Origin: Solibacillus sp. FSL R5-0449
Lineage (GTDB): Bacteria > Bacillota > Bacilli > Bacillales_A > Planococcaceae
Direction: 5' to 3'
Length of the DNA stretch: 64,000 nucleotides
Assembly (NCBI RefSeq): GCF_037975215.1
Contig: NZ_CP150239.1
Coordinates: 1,154,001 to 1,218,000 of the forward strand
Shown one piece after another: positions 1 through 45,100 of this stretch. The notes under the pieces are model-generated. The model was not told the DNA's origin, did not search any database, and was given only the letters and a program-made list of their open reading frames with translations. The translations under genes were made by a program, and so were the position numbers. Every line of letters begins with the position of its first letter. Within the stretch, counting starts at the first letter, position 1.

Positions 1-648
1 GAAGCGAAACGCCAATTACAAGGCGGCGAAAATGAACAGGCAACGCAATTTTTAAAAATCTTTGAGAAATACGATTATGGGAAATTCCCGAAGCCGACAG
101 CACGGATTTCGCAAAGTGTTGAACGTGCCAATGAAAGCTATCCGGAAAATGATGAGGTTGAACAACTGCGTGCGATTAAAGATGAACAACAGTTCTCGGA
201 AAAAGTGAAACAGCTTGAACACGATGCCCGAACAGCGGATGCCGAACGGAAAGCACAGTCGTTTTATGTACAGGGACATCTTTTTTTAATGGCGCACCAT
301 TATGATGAAAGTGTGCACTGCTTTATGCAGGCGGTGAAGCATCATCCGGATAAGGCATTGTATTACGGGATTGCAGGACAGACGATGAACCGATTTAACT
401 GGTCGCCGTTTGATGTAATGGTCTATATTGAGCGGGCGATCGACCTGGATCCGGATAACGCAAGATGGTACTGGAATAAAGCGCTCGTTTTAACACAGCT
501 GTATAAAGATTTGAATGCCGAGCCGTTTTTGGAAAATGCTTTAATTGCTATTGAAAAAGCAATCGAGAATTGTCGCGAAGATCAAGTATCGCTGCGTTCA
601 GGCATTGATTCAACATTGGAAAACTTGAAAGAATATCTTTTCAATTAA
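1..648 (+). CDS. TPR-repeat protein, 5' end outside window
   Basis: The frame is open from base 1, so the gene begins upstream; 215 codons are visible before the TAA. The first ~75 visible residues are charged and probably helical. From about residue 85 there are helix pairs of TPR type (AQSFYVQGHLFLMAHHYDES, then ERAIDLDPDNARWYWNKALV). TPR repeats normally hold protein partners, so a scaffold role is inferred. No catalytic motif or signal peptide is visible in this part. An internal GTG at 205 is not a convincing start because coding sequence continues upstream of it. The next gene begins 28 bp downstream, so the two may be cotranscribed. The family was not recognised. Confidence 0.75.
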   Translation, partial: EAKRQLQGGENEQATQFLKIFEKYDYGKFPKPTARISQSVERANESYPENDEVEQLRAIKDEQQFSEKVKQLEHDARTADAERKAQSFYVQGHLFLMAHHYDESVHCFMQAVKHHPDKALYYGIAGQTMNRFNWSPFDVMVYIERAIDLDPDNARWYWNKALVLTQLYKDLNAEPFLENALIAIEKAIENCREDQVSLRSGIDSTLENLKEYLFN

Positions 649-676
649 CGAAGCACCGGCAGATGGGGGAACAAGC

Positions 677-1108
677 ATGAAGTTTTTATCTTGGAAAGGT
701 ATTTCGATATACTTAACGATCATTCTATTTTTACTTATTTTTATTCAGATTCTTGATTGGAATAAAGGCAATGAAAAAGAGGCTCAATATGCGGTAGAGC
801 TGGAAAAAGCGTATACGGATTTGGTGGATTTCCAAACGTATATATTGAACGATGAAGTGGAGATTGATGACAATAAGCATGTGCTGACAATGTACGAGAA
901 AAACTTTCAATATCAGCTGAGCATGTTCATCGATATTTTCGGCAATAAAAAAGTGGATGATGCAAACCTGTTTGATTCCTATCAACAAATCGATGAGGCA
1001 TTAGCTGCATTTTATGAGGCGGAAAGCGCGGAACAGCAGAGTGGGGCACATCAGCAATTGCTCGATGTTAAAAAACCGCTGTTTACGATTTTGAATGATT
1101 TGAAATAA
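677..1108 (+). CDS. Single-pass membrane protein of unknown function
   Basis: A 143-residue protein with one N-terminal transmembrane anchor at about residues 9-27 (YLTIILFLLIFIQIL), followed by a charged, mostly helical domain of ~115 residues that would lie outside the cytoplasm. There is no lipobox or cleavage motif. A GGGGGAA-type ribosome binding site precedes the ATG. It lies 28 bp behind the TPR gene on the same strand and is followed by a strong terminator, so it is the last gene of that unit. The family was not recognised. Secretion of the C-terminal domain is inferred from the single anchor. Confidence 0.7.
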   Translation: MKFLSWKGISIYLTIILFLLIFIQILDWNKGNEKEAQYAVELEKAYTDLVDFQTYILNDEVEIDDNKHVLTMYEKNFQYQLSMFIDIFGNKKVDDANLFDSYQQIDEALAAFYEAESAEQQSGAHQQLLDVKKPLFTILNDLK

Positions 1109-1115
1109 TAGGGGA

Positions 1116-1162
1116 AGGGCTCACGAACGCTTTGAGGAAGAAAGCGGTACGTGGGCTTTTTT
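1116..1162 (+). terminator. Rho-independent terminator
   Basis: GGGCTCACG pairs with CGTGGGCTT around an inner CGCTTT/AAAGCG hairpin and is followed by a run of T. It ends the upstream two-gene unit. Confidence 0.8.
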
Positions 1163-1178
1163 GTGTGGGACGGAAATG

Positions 1179-1831
1179 TTCTAATATTCATGCTGGAAGT
1201 TCTAATAAAATCTGAAAAGTTCTAATATGTTATGGATCTTCTAATATAAGTTGTGGATTGTCTAATAAGTGTCTCCGATTTTCGAATATCGCGGTCAGAT
1301 GTTCTAATAAGTCAGTCGGATTGTCTAATAAACAGGAAAAAGTTCTAATATAACTACCCCGGTGCACACCATAGCCTCTGTGGAACCGTATAAAGACCAT
1401 TTCTTCGCCATAAACCGGCTGAACTTCTAATATAGTTCTAAAAAGCCAAAACAAATCTTCTAATATGTGGAGATGTGCACCCATTAGCATACCGAAGCCC
1501 AAAAAAGCGCTGAAAGTTCTAATATCCATGCTGGAAGTTCTAATAAAATCTGAAAAGTTCTAATATATAACGGAACTTCTAATATATCTCCCGAATCTTC
1601 TAATAAGTAGCTTCGATCTTCGAATAACGCGGTCAGAAGTTCTAATATGTCATTCAGATTGTCTAATAAAATCGAAAAAGTTCTAATATAACTACCCCGG
1701 TGCACACCATAGCCTCCGTGGAAACGTATTTAGACCGTTCTTCGCCCTAAACCGACTGAACTTCTAATATCCCTGTAAAAAGTTCTAATAAGCCACACAA
1801 ATCTTCTAATAAACCCAAAAAAGTTCTAATA
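1179..1831. repeat. Phased array of the 8-bp motif TTCTAATA in two duplicated modules
   Basis: The motif TTCTAATA starts at 1179, 1200, 1220, 1239, 1302, 1343, 1425, 1458, 1517, 1538, 1558, 1577, 1598, 1640, 1681, 1762, 1783, 1804 and 1824. One-base variants (GTCTAATA or TTCGAATA) fill the phase at 1260, 1281, 1323, 1619 and 1661, giving about 24 units. Spacing is 19-21 bp, close to two helical turns. The nine-unit block 1179-1350 is repeated at 1517-1688 with the same spacing series (21, 20, 19, 21, 21, 21, 21, 20), offset by 338 bp. Each block is followed by a motif-free conserved stretch containing CCCCGGTGCACACCATAG. No credible gene overlaps the array. Its function is unknown. Confidence 0.9.
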
Positions 1832-1851
1832 AATCCAACACCCCAACCCCC

Positions 1852-1896
1852 AAAAAAAGCTGCCCCAAAGTTATAGACATAACTTCAGGACAACCC
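1852..1896 (-). terminator. Terminator of the lia operon
   Basis: On the minus strand AAGTTAT and ATAACTT pair inside an outer GC-rich stem, followed by seven T. It lies just past the stop at 1908. Confidence 0.75.
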
Positions 1897-1907
1897 CAGT
1901 CCAATCA

Positions 1908-2225
1908 TCACTTCTTCTTTTTTCTATCCTTCACAAACGCAAACACGATCATCGCGACCCAAATCACAGCGATCACAATAAAAATGTAAAAGTTTTTTGA
2001 TGAGCTAACTAAATTCAGCTCATCCGCCAAAATCCCACCAATCGACTGCAGTTGTGCACTTAATAAAATAATGAGTGCACCAATAAACAGTATGATTTTC
2101 GGATTGATCGCAAAGCGTAGCAGGACAATGATGAACAAAGCTGAGAAAATCAGCAACAGTGTGAAGAGGGGATCCAGTAATGTGAGCGTCCCGTCCTTTG
2201 CAAAGTTTTCGTACGTAAATGTCAT
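1908..2225 (-). CDS. Small three-helix membrane protein at the end of the lia operon
   Basis: A 105-residue hydrophobic protein with three predicted membrane segments (about residues 19-38, 42-60 and 79-97) and a lysine-rich C-terminal tail (KDRKKKK) that would face the cytoplasm. AAGGAG precedes its ATG. It starts only 12 bp after the liaR stop and is followed by a terminator, so it is very probably the last gene of the envelope-stress operon. The family was not recognised. A role in envelope stress is inferred from position only. Confidence 0.7.
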   Translation of the reverse strand: MTFTYENFAKDGTLTLLDPLFTLLLIFSALFIIVLLRFAINPKIILFIGALIILLSAQLQSIGGILADELNLVSSSKNFYIFIVIAVIWVAMIVFAFVKDRKKKK

Positions 2226-2237
2226 AAAAAATTCTCC

Positions 2238-2867
2238 TTACTTTACTAAGCCATTTTGAAATGCATAGACGACAGCCTGTGTGCGGTCCTGCACTTCGAG
2301 TTTACTTAAAATGTTGCTAACATGGGTTTTTACCGTTTTTAATGCGATAAACAGTTCTTCCGCTATTTCCTGATTGGCAAGGCCGCGAGCCATACATAAG
2401 AGTACTTCCATTTCCCGGTCTGTTAAATGGTTATGCAGGGCAGGGGCTGTTCCGCGCATACGGGCCATTACCCGCGTCGTTGCTTCCGGTTCAAGAACGG
2501 TTTCCCCGGCCATCGTTTTCCGGATCGCTTCGGCAATCTGTTTGGCGTTGCTTGTTTTCAGTATATAGCTGACAGCACCTGCTTCAAGGGCCGGATATAA
2601 TTTATCGTCATCGATAAAGCTCGTGACAATCATTACTTTAGCTTGCGGCCACAGTGCCAAAATTTCGGCAGTCGCTTCAGCACCCGTTTTGATCGGCATC
2701 ACATTATCCATCAGTACAATATCCGGTTTTAGCGAGAGTACTGTTTCAATCGCTTCCTCGCCGTTCGTCGCCTCACCGATGACTTCGATATCGGGTTGTG
2801 CCGATAAATAGGCGGAAACCCCGATTCGAACCATCTCGTGATCATCTACTATGACAACTTTAATCAT
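2238..2867 (-). CDS. liaR: LiaR/VraR-type response regulator
   Basis: A 209-residue NarL/FixJ-type response regulator. The N-terminal receiver domain (about 1-120) has the acidic pair near the start (VVDDHE), the phospho-acceptor Asp in VLMDNVMP and a later conserved Lys. The C-terminal LuxR-type helix-turn-helix is at about 145-205 (LTDREMEVLLCMARG, VKTHVSNILSKL). It overlaps the end of liaS by 8 bp, which implies coupled translation with its kinase. In the LiaFSR family the regulator is phosphorylated by LiaS under lipid-II or membrane stress and activates its own operon. Function is assigned from family plus operon context. Confidence 0.92.
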   Translation of the reverse strand: MIKVVIVDDHEMVRIGVSAYLSAQPDIEVIGEATNGEEAIETVLSLKPDIVLMDNVMPIKTGAEATAEILALWPQAKVMIVTSFIDDDKLYPALEAGAVSYILKTSNAKQIAEAIRKTMAGETVLEPEATTRVMARMRGTAPALHNHLTDREMEVLLCMARGLANQEIAEELFIALKTVKTHVSNILSKLEVQDRTQAVVYAFQNGLVK

Positions 2868-3885
2868 TCATTTGTTCCTCCTTTTTGAGCGGAACTTTCA
2901 CTTCGACAATTGTTCCTTCATCCGGTACAGAGACAATTTTATACGTGCAGCCAATTTCGACAGCGCGTTCGGCAATATTGCGCAGGCCGTAAGAAGTCGT
3001 TTTATCTCCATCCATATTAAAGCCGAGACCATTATCCTGAATGCGCAAAATCGCCAGCTGGTCGCGTGCGATCAATAACAGTTCGACTTCTGTTGCTTTC
3101 GCGTGACGTAACGTATTCGACAAAGCTTCTTGAGCGATTCGGAAGAGATGATCTTCCTCTGCTTTCGATAAAGCGATTTCTTCGATTTGGTAGTCGATAT
3201 TGAAATACACTTTTTCCTGTAATTCTACAATCAGATCTTCTAAACCTTCCGCCAAGCTTTTATTGTGCAGGGCAACTGGTCGCAGATGAAGTAGCAGTGC
3301 GCGCATTTCGAGCTGGGCCTGCTGGACGATTTTTTCCACCTGCCCGAGCTGCTTTTGTGCAAATTCATCTTGTCGCTGTTCTGTAAGTGCGGAGAGGAGC
3401 ATGGAAGCAGCAAACAGCTGCTGGGATACAGAATCATGCAGTTCACGTGCAAGCCGCTGACGTTCTGCAAGAAGCCGCTCCTGAACAATGGCGTCATTCG
3501 TTTCCACTTTTTCATTTGAAAGCCGCTGTAGAGAGGTCCGCTGTGTTTCAATTAATTCATTCGTCTCACGCAATGCTTTTTTTAATGAGCCATTCGCTTT
3601 TTTGAATTTTTGTGCGAAATCAGGCTCCGCCACTTTTTTCACAATGCGGGTCATCTGATTTTCTTTCATTTTCAATGCGATTGAAATCCATAATGAAATA
3701 AAGAAGCTCGTCGTTGTTGCGATAATGGCAATCACGGCGACAATCGGTAATGAGTAATCATTGTTTTCCCATAAAAAGCGCCAAGTCTCTTCTTGCGGTT
3801 GGCCAAGCAGGAAAATGAAAATATTCATGGCAAAAGTTGCAAAAACCATCATCAGTATAAAAAAGCGTAAAATAAAGGCAATCAT
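2860..3885 (-). CDS. liaS: LiaS/VraS-type sensor histidine kinase
   Basis: A 341-residue kinase starting at the ATG at 3885, behind GGAGGTG. Two N-terminal membrane helices (about 4-25 and 42-65) enclose a short external loop, typical of intramembrane-sensing kinases. A linker and coiled coil lead to a HisKA_3 dimerisation domain whose phospho-accepting His is in RLARELHDSVSQQ. The C-terminal HATPase_c domain has the N box (EALSNTLRHA) and G box (DNGLGF). It overlaps liaF by 4 bp and liaR by 8 bp. The expected partner is LiaR, with LiaF as inhibitor. Confidence 0.92.
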   Translation of the reverse strand: MIAFILRFFILMMVFATFAMNIFIFLLGQPQEETWRFLWENNDYSLPIVAVIAIIATTTSFFISLWISIALKMKENQMTRIVKKVAEPDFAQKFKKANGSLKKALRETNELIETQRTSLQRLSNEKVETNDAIVQERLLAERQRLARELHDSVSQQLFAASMLLSALTEQRQDEFAQKQLGQVEKIVQQAQLEMRALLLHLRPVALHNKSLAEGLEDLIVELQEKVYFNIDYQIEEIALSKAEEDHLFRIAQEALSNTLRHAKATEVELLLIARDQLAILRIQDNGLGFNMDGDKTTSYGLRNIAERAVEIGCTYKIVSVPDEGTIVEVKVPLKKEEQMND

Positions 3886-4556
3886 CCGCGCTGCACCTCC
3901 ACATCGCCAATCCAAGATGTCACATAAATAACTAGGACACGTTTTGCATCCATTTCTCCATCCTCAAAACGAAGCTGTTCATTAATACATTGCTTTGGCG
4001 CATAGTCCAAGTATGTTGCTTCACCATATAAAGTGGAGTAATGCAGCTGAATCGTCACTTCATAAGGTACGATAACACGTACCTTTCCAAGAGATTGATG
4101 GATGACGATAATCGATTTTCCGTTTGGTAAAATCGTTTCGGTCGTATCGATTGTAATATCGCCGATAAAACGTTGAATATGAACGTCTTTCCAATGATAG
4201 CTTTCTGTCGGAGCACCCGTTGTGCCGATTAATTGATTGTGATTTGATGTATTGGCAAAGTGGCTTTTGATTTCCATCACTTGCTCTTTTTTCGTTAAGT
4301 ATTGGTATAAAAGAAAGACTAGCACACCGATGATTAAAAGGCGCAGTGTCCAAATATTAATAATAGCAAAGAATAATAGAATGAGTCCCGTCCATAATAA
4401 GTACCGTTTCTTCTTTTTAAAGCTGAAAAATAGAAACAGTGCACCTAAAATCAGTAAAAACACAGTGCCATTATTGAAAAGAGTCAATTCAATCAATACG
4501 ACAAGTGCCATACTAATCGCGATAATCGCAAGCTGATCTGATGTAATTTTCGGCAT
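3882..4556 (-). CDS. liaF: LiaF-type membrane inhibitor of the LiaSR system
   Basis: A 224-residue protein. The ATG at 4556 lies directly behind a GGGGGAGG ribosome binding site and is preferred to an upstream start. The N-terminal half has about four hydrophobic segments (residues 8-95). The C-terminal half is a beta-rich soluble domain of the LiaF/DUF2154 type (DVHIQRFIGDITIDT, LGKVRVIVPYEV). In B. subtilis LiaF keeps LiaS inactive in unstressed cells. Its place immediately ahead of liaS, with a 4-bp overlap, is the canonical arrangement. Confidence 0.88.
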   Translation of the reverse strand: MPKITSDQLAIIAISMALVVLIELTLFNNGTVFLLILGALFLFFSFKKKKRYLLWTGLILLFFAIINIWTLRLLIIGVLVFLLYQYLTKKEQVMEIKSHFANTSNHNQLIGTTGAPTESYHWKDVHIQRFIGDITIDTTETILPNGKSIIVIHQSLGKVRVIVPYEVTIQLHYSTLYGEATYLDYAPKQCINEQLRFEDGEMDAKRVLVIYVTSWIGDVEVQRG

Positions 4557-4622
4557 AGTGCCTCCCCCTATAACGTGCAAAATGGAGAAAGCACGATGCC
4601 TTCTCCTTTACGCATTATATCA

Positions 4623-5249
4623 TTATTTTGGCTGTTCTATGAGCTTTTGTTCTTTTTCAAGCTGTGCCAAGCGAGCTTCAAAAGAGGTTACTTCATATTT
4701 ACGCTCGATATTTTGAGATAATTCATCAATATACGTTGATAGTTCATCAAAATTACCGGCATTGTCCGATGTGAGAACTTTATCCATTTGATGGTTGGCA
4801 CGCACGACATTTTCTTTGCCCATCAGCTGAAGCTGGCGCACTTTCATATCTTTGATTTTATGTTTCATCGTTTCGAATTTGCGTTCCAGTGCAAAATATT
4901 CCGTATTCGCTGCATCAATGCTTGAAAGAAGAGCGTGTTTTCGTGCAGTGTAAGCCGTTACTTCTTCCTGTGCAAACGCAATCAGTTCAGCTTCCCCAGT
5001 TGACTGAGCCAGTACTAGCTGTTTTTCACGTTTCTCAAGCATTTCAACTGTTTGTGAAAGTTGGATTTCCAGCTCTTTTTTTAGCTGAGCCTGACGTGCA
5101 AGCAATTTGCCCGTTTCTTCAGTTTGTTTTTCTGCTTCACGAATGTAGTGGTTCAGCATTTTAATCGGGTTTTTGTCGACCTTTTTGTCAAACATTTCAT
5201 GTAAATCCGCCTGAATTGAATATTTAAATTTTGTAAATAAATTTCTCAT
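4623..5249 (-). CDS. liaH: PspA/LiaH family membrane-stress protein
   Basis: A 208-residue, almost entirely helical coiled-coil protein of the PspA/IM30/LiaH family, slightly shorter than the usual 220-225 residues. The conserved N-terminal amphipathic start (MRNLFTKFKYSIQADLHEMF) and the family segment KNPIKMLNHYIREAEKQ are visible. Members form ring or rod assemblies on the inner membrane surface and limit damage under envelope stress. It is placed between the LiaI-like gene and liaF in a five- to six-gene leftward operon, so it is the likely major effector of the system. Confidence 0.88.
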   Translation of the reverse strand: MRNLFTKFKYSIQADLHEMFDKKVDKNPIKMLNHYIREAEKQTEETGKLLARQAQLKKELEIQLSQTVEMLEKREKQLVLAQSTGEAELIAFAQEEVTAYTARKHALLSSIDAANTEYFALERKFETMKHKIKDMKVRQLQLMGKENVVRANHQMDKVLTSDNAGNFDELSTYIDELSQNIERKYEVTSFEARLAQLEKEQKLIEQPK

Positions 5250-43917: not shown

Positions 43918-43970
43918 TTGTTGCCCACAAACTGATTTTTAATTGCCCACATTTTGCCCACAAACTTTTT
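43918..43970. repeat. Short direct repeats between glnA and the integrase gene
   Basis: TTGCCCACAAAC occurs near 43921, TTGCCCACATT near 43942 and TTGCCCACAAAC-like again near 43953. They lie at the expected end of the integrated element and may be integrase arm or core sites. No matching copy was found by eye at the right end. Confidence 0.4.
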
Positions 43971-45100
43971 TATTGCCCCAATTTTTCCATGTATTCATCA
44001 AAATTATGAAGGGTATTTTCTGCATGTTTATGCGATATATGCGCATAAGTATTAATTGTAGTAGTAGCAGATTCATGACCAAGACGATCAGCAATGGACT
44101 TCATATCCCATCCAGCCTCAATAAGCATTGCCACATGCGTATGACGGGTAGAGTGAATCGGAATTGGCTCAAGTTCTAAATATTCCTGAGAAGATTTAAA
44201 AGCATTCCAAAGTGTGGATTTTGAAATAGGGTTTCCATCATCACGAGCGAATACAAGATTTAATTCATGATTGTAAAGGCTACCGACAAGCATCTTCTGT
44301 TCGGTACGATACTTTACATATGTTTTGAGCTTTTGCATATATTTTGGACGCATTTTTATGATGCGGGTAGAGGAATAGGTTTTTGGATCACCCAGGAGAT
44401 CGTCACCTTCTTCTGGTTGGAAATCTAATATTTGATCTACACGCAAAGTATTTTCACGCCAATCAATATCATCTAAACGAAGTGCAGCACATTCACCTTT
44501 ACGCATCCCAGTCTCAAAAAGTGTCTCAAAAAATAAACCTAATGTATAATCACGGCGATAAAGGTATTCTAAAATTTGAGGGACGAGACTAGGTTCTATG
44601 AATTTTAGTTTTTTCACGGGCAGTTTTTTTATAACCACATTTTCACAAGGATTTTTAGTGATATATCCATTTAACACAGCACGTTTCATACATTGATAAA
44701 TTGCATTATGAACACGACGAGCTGTAGAATGTGCTAATCCACCTTCAATAATGCTATCTATAAATTTTTGATAAGCCATTGGGCGAATTTCCTGTAGGTG
44801 CATATCTCCAAAAGCAGGGCCTGCATGATCGCGAATTGCATTACGGTATGTTTTGTAAGTGTTGGGCTTCAATTTATCTTTTACATAGTTTTCAAGCCAC
44901 ATTTCCCCAAAGACTTTAAAGAGCATTTTACCACCAAGATGCTCATTGTTTTTTAATTCGACTTCTCTTTCCATAGCTGCTTTTCTAGCTTCTGGTTTTG
45001 AATGAAAGCCACCTCCGGTATACTCTTTCCATTCATCATTGAATCCTTTTACACGAATACGATAGGTCCAATACTTGCCACGTTTTCGAAATGAGGCCAT
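43970..45100 (-). CDS. Phage/ICE-type tyrosine integrase
   Basis: A 376-residue integrase. An N-terminal arm-binding domain (MASFRKRGKYWTYRIRVKGF) is followed by a SAM-like core-binding domain and the catalytic domain: Arg in ETGMRKGECAALRLDDIDW, HSTRHTHVAMLIEAGW, LGHESATTTINTYAH with the nucleophilic Tyr. All catalytic residues look intact. AAAGGAG precedes the ATG. It points toward glnA, so the attachment site is expected in the glnA-int gap. The next gene on the same strand is an ImmA-type protease gene, a common phage/ICE pairing. Confidence 0.93.
   Translation of the reverse strand: MASFRKRGKYWTYRIRVKGFNDEWKEYTGGGFHSKPEARKAAMEREVELKNNEHLGGKMLFKVFGEMWLENYVKDKLKPNTYKTYRNAIRDHAGPAFGDMHLQEIRPMAYQKFIDSIIEGGLAHSTARRVHNAIYQCMKRAVLNGYITKNPCENVVIKKLPVKKLKFIEPSLVPQILEYLYRRDYTLGLFFETLFETGMRKGECAALRLDDIDWRENTLRVDQILDFQPEEGDDLLGDPKTYSSTRIIKMRPKYMQKLKTYVKYRTEQKMLVGSLYNHELNLVFARDDGNPISKSTLWNAFKSSQEYLELEPIPIHSTRHTHVAMLIEAGWDMKSIADRLGHESATTTINTYAHISHKHAENTLHNFDEYMEKLGQ

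Follow-up and report, generated by a model that had tools for sequence, protein, structure and literature searches.

Between two convergent genes of a Solibacillus lies a row of copies of one 8-bp motif, and the locus raises the question of what such a row is for and whether it acts as DNA, as RNA or as coding sequence. In the window, by which we mean the whole 64 000-nucleotide stretch that was analysed, 22 exact copies of TTCTAATA were found against 5.26 expected, a number reached by none of 100 shuffles.

The window array and its genome-wide family

Nineteen exact units, all on the plus strand, lie at positions 1179-1831, together with five in-phase copies that differ by one base (GTCTAATA at 1260, 1323 and 1661; TTCGAATA at 1281 and 1619), as counted in an earlier description made from the sequence alone (the sequence-only reading), to which one further, off-phase variant can be added (Table 1). 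The duplication of a nine-unit block 338 bp downstream, with the same irregular series of steps, was confirmed. The units were said to be 19-21 bp apart, which holds within the blocks, but the array also contains gaps of 33, 59, 82 and 81 bp. As to the motif-free segment described as conserved behind each block, CCCCGGTGCACACC is present in both window copies, but by eye it occurs only in these two tandem copies and in none of the other elements inspected, which keep the length of the unit-free gap and not its sequence, and the tail of module A is degraded. The terminator of the left-hand gene has a counterpart in related species. A short tandem repeat of ~30-33 bp with TTGCCCA motifs, at 43921-43985 of the window, is unrelated to the array.

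Table 1. Features of the array and its immediate surroundings (window positions)
Feature	Position	Strand	Remarks
Intrinsic terminator of left gene (677-1108, +)	1118-1162	+	by eye; the array comes after its T run
Module A, nine-unit block	1179-1350	+	steps 21, 20, 19, 21, 21, 21, 21, 20 bp
Module A, unit-free gap	1351-1424	+	CCCCGGTGCACACC at 1357-1370; unit 9 start to unit 10 start 82 bp
Module A, degraded tail	1425-1465	+	exact units at 1425 and 1458; off-phase one-base variant TTCTAAAA at 1436
Module B, nine-unit block	1517-1688	+	step series as in module A
Module B, unit-free gap	1689-1761	+	CCCCGGTGCACACC at 1695-1708; unit 9 start to unit 10 start 81 bp
Module B, tail	1762-1831	+	four units, steps 21, 21, 20 bp
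Intrinsic terminator of right gene (1908-2225, -)	1852-1893	-	by eye; convergent with the left-gene terminator

The genome of this soil bacterium (G000) contains at least 53 array loci, of which 52 were studied (51 fetched loci and the window), carrying 54 elements; the tandem-duplicated loci include the window, L035 and L051. An array at 3114 kb (L302), found late and kept outside all counts, has a 60-bp gap and lacks the 19-bp step. Genome-wide, 327 unit pairs at 8-18 bp spacing were found (126 forward, 201 reverse) against 0 for a reversed control pattern, so that chance frequency explains neither these pairs nor the count in the window, and a search for the 19-bp step that tolerated one mismatch gave 57 matches against 0 for its control. 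The nine-unit block is present in 52 of the 54 elements, with steps of 20-21, 20 and 19 bp, then mostly 21 bp, and spacers of 11-13 bp; about half of the elements continue with a gap of ~81 bp and a four-unit tail. Unit 10 occurs in 33 of the 54 elements and all 13 units in 25, and the distance from unit 9 to unit 10 (n = 33) is 81/82 bp in 22, 71/72 bp in eight, and 76, 91 and 93 bp once each. Units 1, 3, 4, 9 and 10 are near-invariant, units 6 and 7 are often TTCAAATA, and exact units inside arrays number 498 in one orientation and 0 in the other. The sequence-only reading was correct in setting the array apart from CRISPR, in which repeats of ~24-40 bp alternate with unique spacers of similar size, whereas here an 8-bp core is separated by 11-13-bp spacers that can be aligned between species.

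Spacer 2, between units 2 and 3, is unusually uniform in many arrays compared with the other spacers, and is TATAAATTTATTTG-like. Base composition is skewed when the 52 own-genome loci are pooled: the 25 bp 5' of unit 1 are 31% G and 12% C, the 25 bp 3' of the last unit are 33% C and 12% G (1154-1178 and 1832-1856 in the window), and the spacers shift from G-rich to C-rich along the array.

Selection on the units and helical phasing

Conservation was compared between G000 and its congener G159, for which 38 loci were paired and 33 pairs counted (not every G159 array was fetched; L275, L284 and L285 were excluded by name, L255 by a score cut, and L253, whose partner L064 lacks three clustered exact units). 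Identity was 96.6% in the units (2996/3102), 77.9% in the spacers (4625/5936), 89.5% in the flanking genes (35670/39862) and 3028/3745 immediately outside the arrays. Units exceeded spacers in 33 of 33 pairs, a contrast that may be somewhat inflated since the units were defined on G000 and the alignment favours matching units. The sequence-only reading had seen that spacers differ more than motifs and had suggested selection on the motif, and these figures bear it out. A few bases on either side of the 8-mer are likewise conserved in these pairs. Among the 498 exact units, A or T stands at +8 in 497, A at -1 in 10 and T at +9 in 10, and the extended consensus is about A-R-W-T-B-TTCTAATA-W-V, or ~13 bp. 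A footprint of this size would fit a specific DNA-binding domain, and judged from these comparisons of sequence the units are very probably selected protein-binding sites in DNA.

Recent neutral expansion of a tandem repeat does not fit these data, since spacers within one block are mutually unlike (median identity 0.38, 54 blocks), as against a median of 0.94 in similar-looking tandem repeats from viruses and other phyla (49 with comparable spacers). A hand count gave 110 stretches in named genomes, 56 of them in Solibacillus and Ureibacillus and 54 elsewhere; 39 of the latter and 13 viral ones were inspected as lookalikes, and 21 of these 52 lie within an open frame of at least 80 aa. Spacer divergence (0.38 versus 0.94) and conservation of the units across species speak against neutral tandem expansion, and an expansion confined to one strain is contradicted by the presence of the pattern in 13 genomes and by the unit and spacer identities given above. 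Four stretches from other phyla or a viral contig (L099, L105, L156 and L200) keep the unit with differing spacers at an identity below 0.6, unlike ordinary tandem repeats.

Sites two helical turns apart all face one side of the duplex, and the longer gaps were examined in the same light. Among 127 pooled gaps of more than 24 bp, taken from G000, G159 and six other congeners at the window site and clustered by hand, 116 fall at 39-42, 49-50, 57-59, 70-72, 81-83, 91-93 or 101-102 bp, and the other 11 measure 25, 26, 30, 33, 37, 38, 44, 45, 48, 76 and 85 bp; the gap of 58-59 bp lies ~2 bp below the length of six 10.2-bp turns. Much of the grammar descends from one ancestral element, so that gaps, loci and orthologues do not test phasing independently of one another. 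In the own genome, the gap behind the block has changed to 71/72 bp in L031, L035, L055, L062 and L078 (hand count), to 71 bp in L061 (skipping an extra off-phase unit), to 50 bp in L073 and to 91 bp in L081. These lengths (50, 71/72 and 91 bp) differ from 81 by about one or about three helical turns, and a change of 10 bp retains the helical face and breaks the reading frame. A Rayleigh test on 27 non-canonical own-genome gaps gave p ~8e-4 at a period of 10.25 bp, the period being chosen by the analyst, and the peak is broad (0.40 at 10, 0.58 at 10.5, 0.56 at 11 and 0.41 at 11.5), so that a periodicity near the helical turn is supported and the exact period is not fixed. With each distinct gap length counted once, a weak peak was obtained (0.397 at 10.8).

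Intrinsic curvature was tested and not supported. A wedge model gave ratios of end-to-end to contour length of 0.932 for real, 0.937 for spacer-shuffled and 0.943 for phase-broken arrays, against 0.435 for an A-tract control, and the real array showed the stronger bend in 23 of 52 comparisons with its spacer-shuffled version and in 28 of 52 with its phase-broken version.

Placement and distribution of the arrays

The arrays flank the 3' end of a gene at 50 of 52 loci. Both neighbours lie on the array's minus strand at 21 loci and on its plus strand at 11; 17 loci are convergent, two are divergent, and one (L081), without a right-hand gene call, was excluded from the orientation comparison (n = 51). 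Against a baseline of 75 regions measuring 50 bp or more (44 codirectional, 17 divergent, 14 convergent), drawn from two stretches, namely the window and 60 kb picked as array-rich, divergent sites are scarce (2/51 versus 17/75) and convergent sites common (17/51 versus 14/75). Gene and array are separated by a terminator-like hairpin and its T run on 53 of 61 gene-3' sides and on 3 of 32 gene-5' sides, counted where the array is 20-250 bp (3') or 20-400 bp (5') from the gene. As for the notion that arrays are always intergenic and phased at 21 bp, none of the 52 loci lies inside a called gene, partly by construction since the gene caller dropped frames shorter than 300 aa whose overlap with an array exceeded 60 bp, and the steps range from 19 to 21 bp with longer gaps besides. 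Arrays at the window site range from four to many units in seven congeners; in G150, G151 and G162 the site is without an array and the terminator almost adjoins the gene that follows.

The 52 loci are spread over the chromosome, with 2 to 11 in each eighth, a distribution that departs little from uniformity (KS p 0.07). The partition-like role offered by the sequence-only reading is weakened by this spread, the sites of a parS-type centromere being clustered near the origin and bound by ParB. Seven arrays lie within ~42 kb at G000:C1:2688915-2731017 (L266-L268), where the intervening genes seem unrelated by eye, and clusters of seven in ~30 kb and six in ~38 kb occur in G159 and G163, respectively. 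Three low-copy congeners each have a matching short array (L235:5718-5846, L237:5846-5974 and L241:5978-6048) that is flanked by an operon of the arsR-arsB type and a divergent gene of the 3-dmu type and adjoins ATAAG-N6-CTTAT palindromes; the Pfam assignments come from L235, to which L237 and L241 were matched through gene sizes and array sequence. These arrays occupy divergent, promoter-bearing space and not a gene end.

The array element is a clade-specific, dispersed family. A three-unit pattern was found in 13 of the 261 genomes of the bacterial family and in 2 of 19 genera, namely in 11 of 16 genomes of the window's genus (g1) and 2 of 25 of genus g18, the genera being presumably Solibacillus and Ureibacillus, and a scan of named genomes matched Solibacillus faecavium, S. 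merdavium, S. palustris, Ureibacillus manganicus and U. acetophenoni. Five congeners (G157, G158, G160, G161 and G164) lack the three-unit pattern, and with one mismatch allowed they gave 10 matches in total against 9 for the control; G150, G151 and G162 have merely 2-5 short arrays each, mainly with 21-bp steps. The two Ureibacillus species use the same TTCTAATA unit in another grammar, in which four units (sometimes three) and a step of ~40 bp are repeated, as seen in 16 of the 17 loci examined out of 23, with L132 as the exception. The plasmids searched gave no match to the array, and in the literature, covered at the level of titles and abstracts and thinly for subscription journals, no description of the motif on either strand or of Solibacillus or Ureibacillus repeats was found. 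The bcr repeats of the Bacillus cereus group are similarly dispersed, intergenic and confined to one group of Bacillales; they are not, however, known to be arrays of a phased short motif, as the present rows are.

Possible roles of the arrays

Strict sequence, a single direction, one helical face, selection and placement at unit ends are together best accounted for by protomers of a single DNA-binding protein arranged in a row. The window array would then be one of at least 53 dispersed copies of a row of near-identical directional sites two helical turns apart, and a putative sequence-specific protein would coat one face of the DNA, probably as a cooperative head-to-tail row of about nine subunits, with four further subunits at about half of the array copies. 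That the rows lie mostly beyond terminators, at the ends of transcription units and often between convergent genes, makes an architectural or insulating role the most likely one, in which a fixed nucleoprotein patch may bridge or anchor DNA and limit read-through or the diffusion of supercoils between neighbouring units. Insulation or anchoring at unit ends would fit the placement best; placement at gene 3' ends may merely reflect tolerance of insertion. We would give the whole statement, a dispersed platform for a head-to-tail DNA-binding protein with an architectural or insulating role at unit ends, a probability of roughly one half. For the cooperative binding platform already proposed in the sequence-only reading, unit conservation, single orientation and helical phasing speak in favour, but no binder was found among the families tried. 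These were Y1_Tnp and HTH_17 alone, and neither tracks the presence of arrays, HTH_17 (PF12728) being found in 13 of 16 congeners and not detected in the array-rich G000 and G156.

Several known systems share part of this design. Plasmid iterons are tandem sites of one direction, spaced by about two turns of the helix and bound by protein in a row, a direction and spacing that the arrays share; the arrays, however, lie at no fewer than 53 chromosomal loci, and no initiator was found among 20 scanned 3'-abutting neighbours. Gene ends, where the arrays lie, are the expected sites of positive supercoils. A nucleoid protein of the GapR type reads overtwisted DNA, whereas the array sites are sequence-strict. 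GapR, according to PMC8360656, has been used for mapping positive supercoils. BldC, in the account given in PMC5859096, binds direct repeats as asymmetric protomers in a row, directionally and in variable number, each subunit taking a 9-bp site, and the sites described there are promoter sites. The arrays are direct repeats as in BldC operators, but their units recur every ~20.5 bp and form rows of nine, or of nine plus four, at the ends of genes, and the HTH_17 count does not track them.

A different explanation is that the arrays are a selfish or formerly mobile repeat that multiplied into safe sites behind terminators, the units being recognition sites of a mobilising protein with little or no benefit to the cell. 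Paralogues match essentially over the array alone (of 1026 matches, 95% reach at most 10 bp upstream of the first unit and 95% at most 8 bp downstream of the last), and thus the array is the unit that spread; such sharp borders, the empty window site in G150, G151 and G162 and a placement like that of REP elements would all suit a mobile origin. REP/BIME sequences, as outlined in PMC1525189, are dispersed, extragenic and frequent between convergent genes, with roles in supercoiling, termination and mRNA stability hypothesised in PMC3733652, and the arrays resemble them in being extragenic, at gene ends (50/52) and often convergent. In contrast to REP/BIME, however, the arrays are directional and phased, follow a fixed grammar and contain neither an inverted unit nor a palindromic stem-loop unit. 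Nor does their presence among 16 congeners follow the Y1 (RAYT-type) transposase PF01797, which is present in 9 of the 16, is absent from the array-rich G155 and G156 and is present in the array-free G160 (with a stop) and G164. At least 34 of the 38 fetched G159 arrays occupy the same locus as a G000 array, the units are conserved above the level of the genes, and six paralogue pairs inspected by eye showed neither a terminal inverted repeat nor a target duplication. On this evidence we consider a selfish or formerly mobile repeat unlikely. The L034 locus is missing from G159 together with its genes, and is retained in G154, G156 and G163, so that it offers no empty site for insertion borders; the L040 locus is broken up in G159. 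A near-identical stretch lies beside the arrays of two unrelated loci in two species (L075 ~740-846 and L209 ~1345-1460), and on its other strand a small open frame (MTQINLNLNLEE...) seems to begin; it may be an insertion-sequence remnant.

That the arrays are clusters of transcription-factor sites, serving as operators of a regulator of the neighbouring genes, appears improbable. The extended motif is of the kind recognised by such factors, and one array type, in three low-copy species, does occupy a promoter-bearing region beside an arsR operon, as mentioned above. The family as a whole, however, avoids divergent, promoter-bearing regions (2/51), both neighbours point into the array at 17 of 52 loci, and no function is common to the 20 scanned 3'-abutting genes, two of which had no Pfam match at the limit used.

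Action at the level of RNA is quite improbable. Read-through transcripts would present regularly spaced UUCUAAUA sites to an RNA-binding protein that influences decay or the processing of 3' ends, in keeping with the location of arrays after gene ends and terminators and with the single orientation of units within each array. Single-stranded RNA, however, gives no cause for gap changes of about one helical turn, and the strand of the array is not clearly tied to that of the gene, codirectional loci being antisense to the 3'-abutting gene in 21 cases and sense in 11 (p 0.11). The unusual structured RNA entertained in the sequence-only reading, and base-paired RNA in general, found no support on three counts: positions 1-5000 gave no Rfam match at E<=1; folding of 18 of the 54 elements showed no clear excess (mean z about -0.25 on the plus and -0.35 on the minus strand, range -3.0 to +2.3, with L042 and L045 at -2.6 and -3.0 on the minus strand); and pairing between spacers gave no covariation signal (best z -2.1 among the pairs tested). 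Pairing between the flanks was weak (z -1.2 on the plus and -2.2 on the minus strand).

Finally, a coding sequence on the minus strand, or a pseudogene, for a coiled-coil protein with LLE-type heptads is hardly credible: units in the main frame do read as [IL]LE heptads held in frame by the 21-bp steps, a 99-aa minus-strand open frame passes through part of the window array, and the spacers of a second ('IR') frame show a mild deficit of stops (29 against 38.1 expected, sd 5.0), but the conserved 19- and 20-bp steps break the frame, as was seen from the sequence at the outset, and so do the 10-bp gap changes, heptad-frame stops fall in 43 of 354 spacers against 37.8 expected (column shuffles, sd 4.9), and no more than 23 unit variants are synonymous against 99 that are not, which is about the non-coding expectation (5 of 24 possible changes), the LLED heptads being a by-product.

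Returning to the row of one DNA-binding protein, this reading can be extended, tentatively and as a possibility more than an expectation, to a lineage-specific chromosome-organising system, in which rows of a dedicated protein on one helical face, at ~50 fixed boundary sites behind terminators, would delimit transcriptionally and topologically insulated segments, with a grammar that diverged between genera, being nine or nine plus four in Solibacillus and repeated fours in Ureibacillus. If the protein-row reading is true, these genomes would contain a natural collection of directional, helically phased protein sites on a genome-wide scale, with units that change more slowly than genes do, and the binder would be directly recoverable with an array probe. 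The arrays would then offer a testable case of how bacteria mark the ends of transcription units, and of how a grammar of multiple binding sites first spreads and later stays in place across species.
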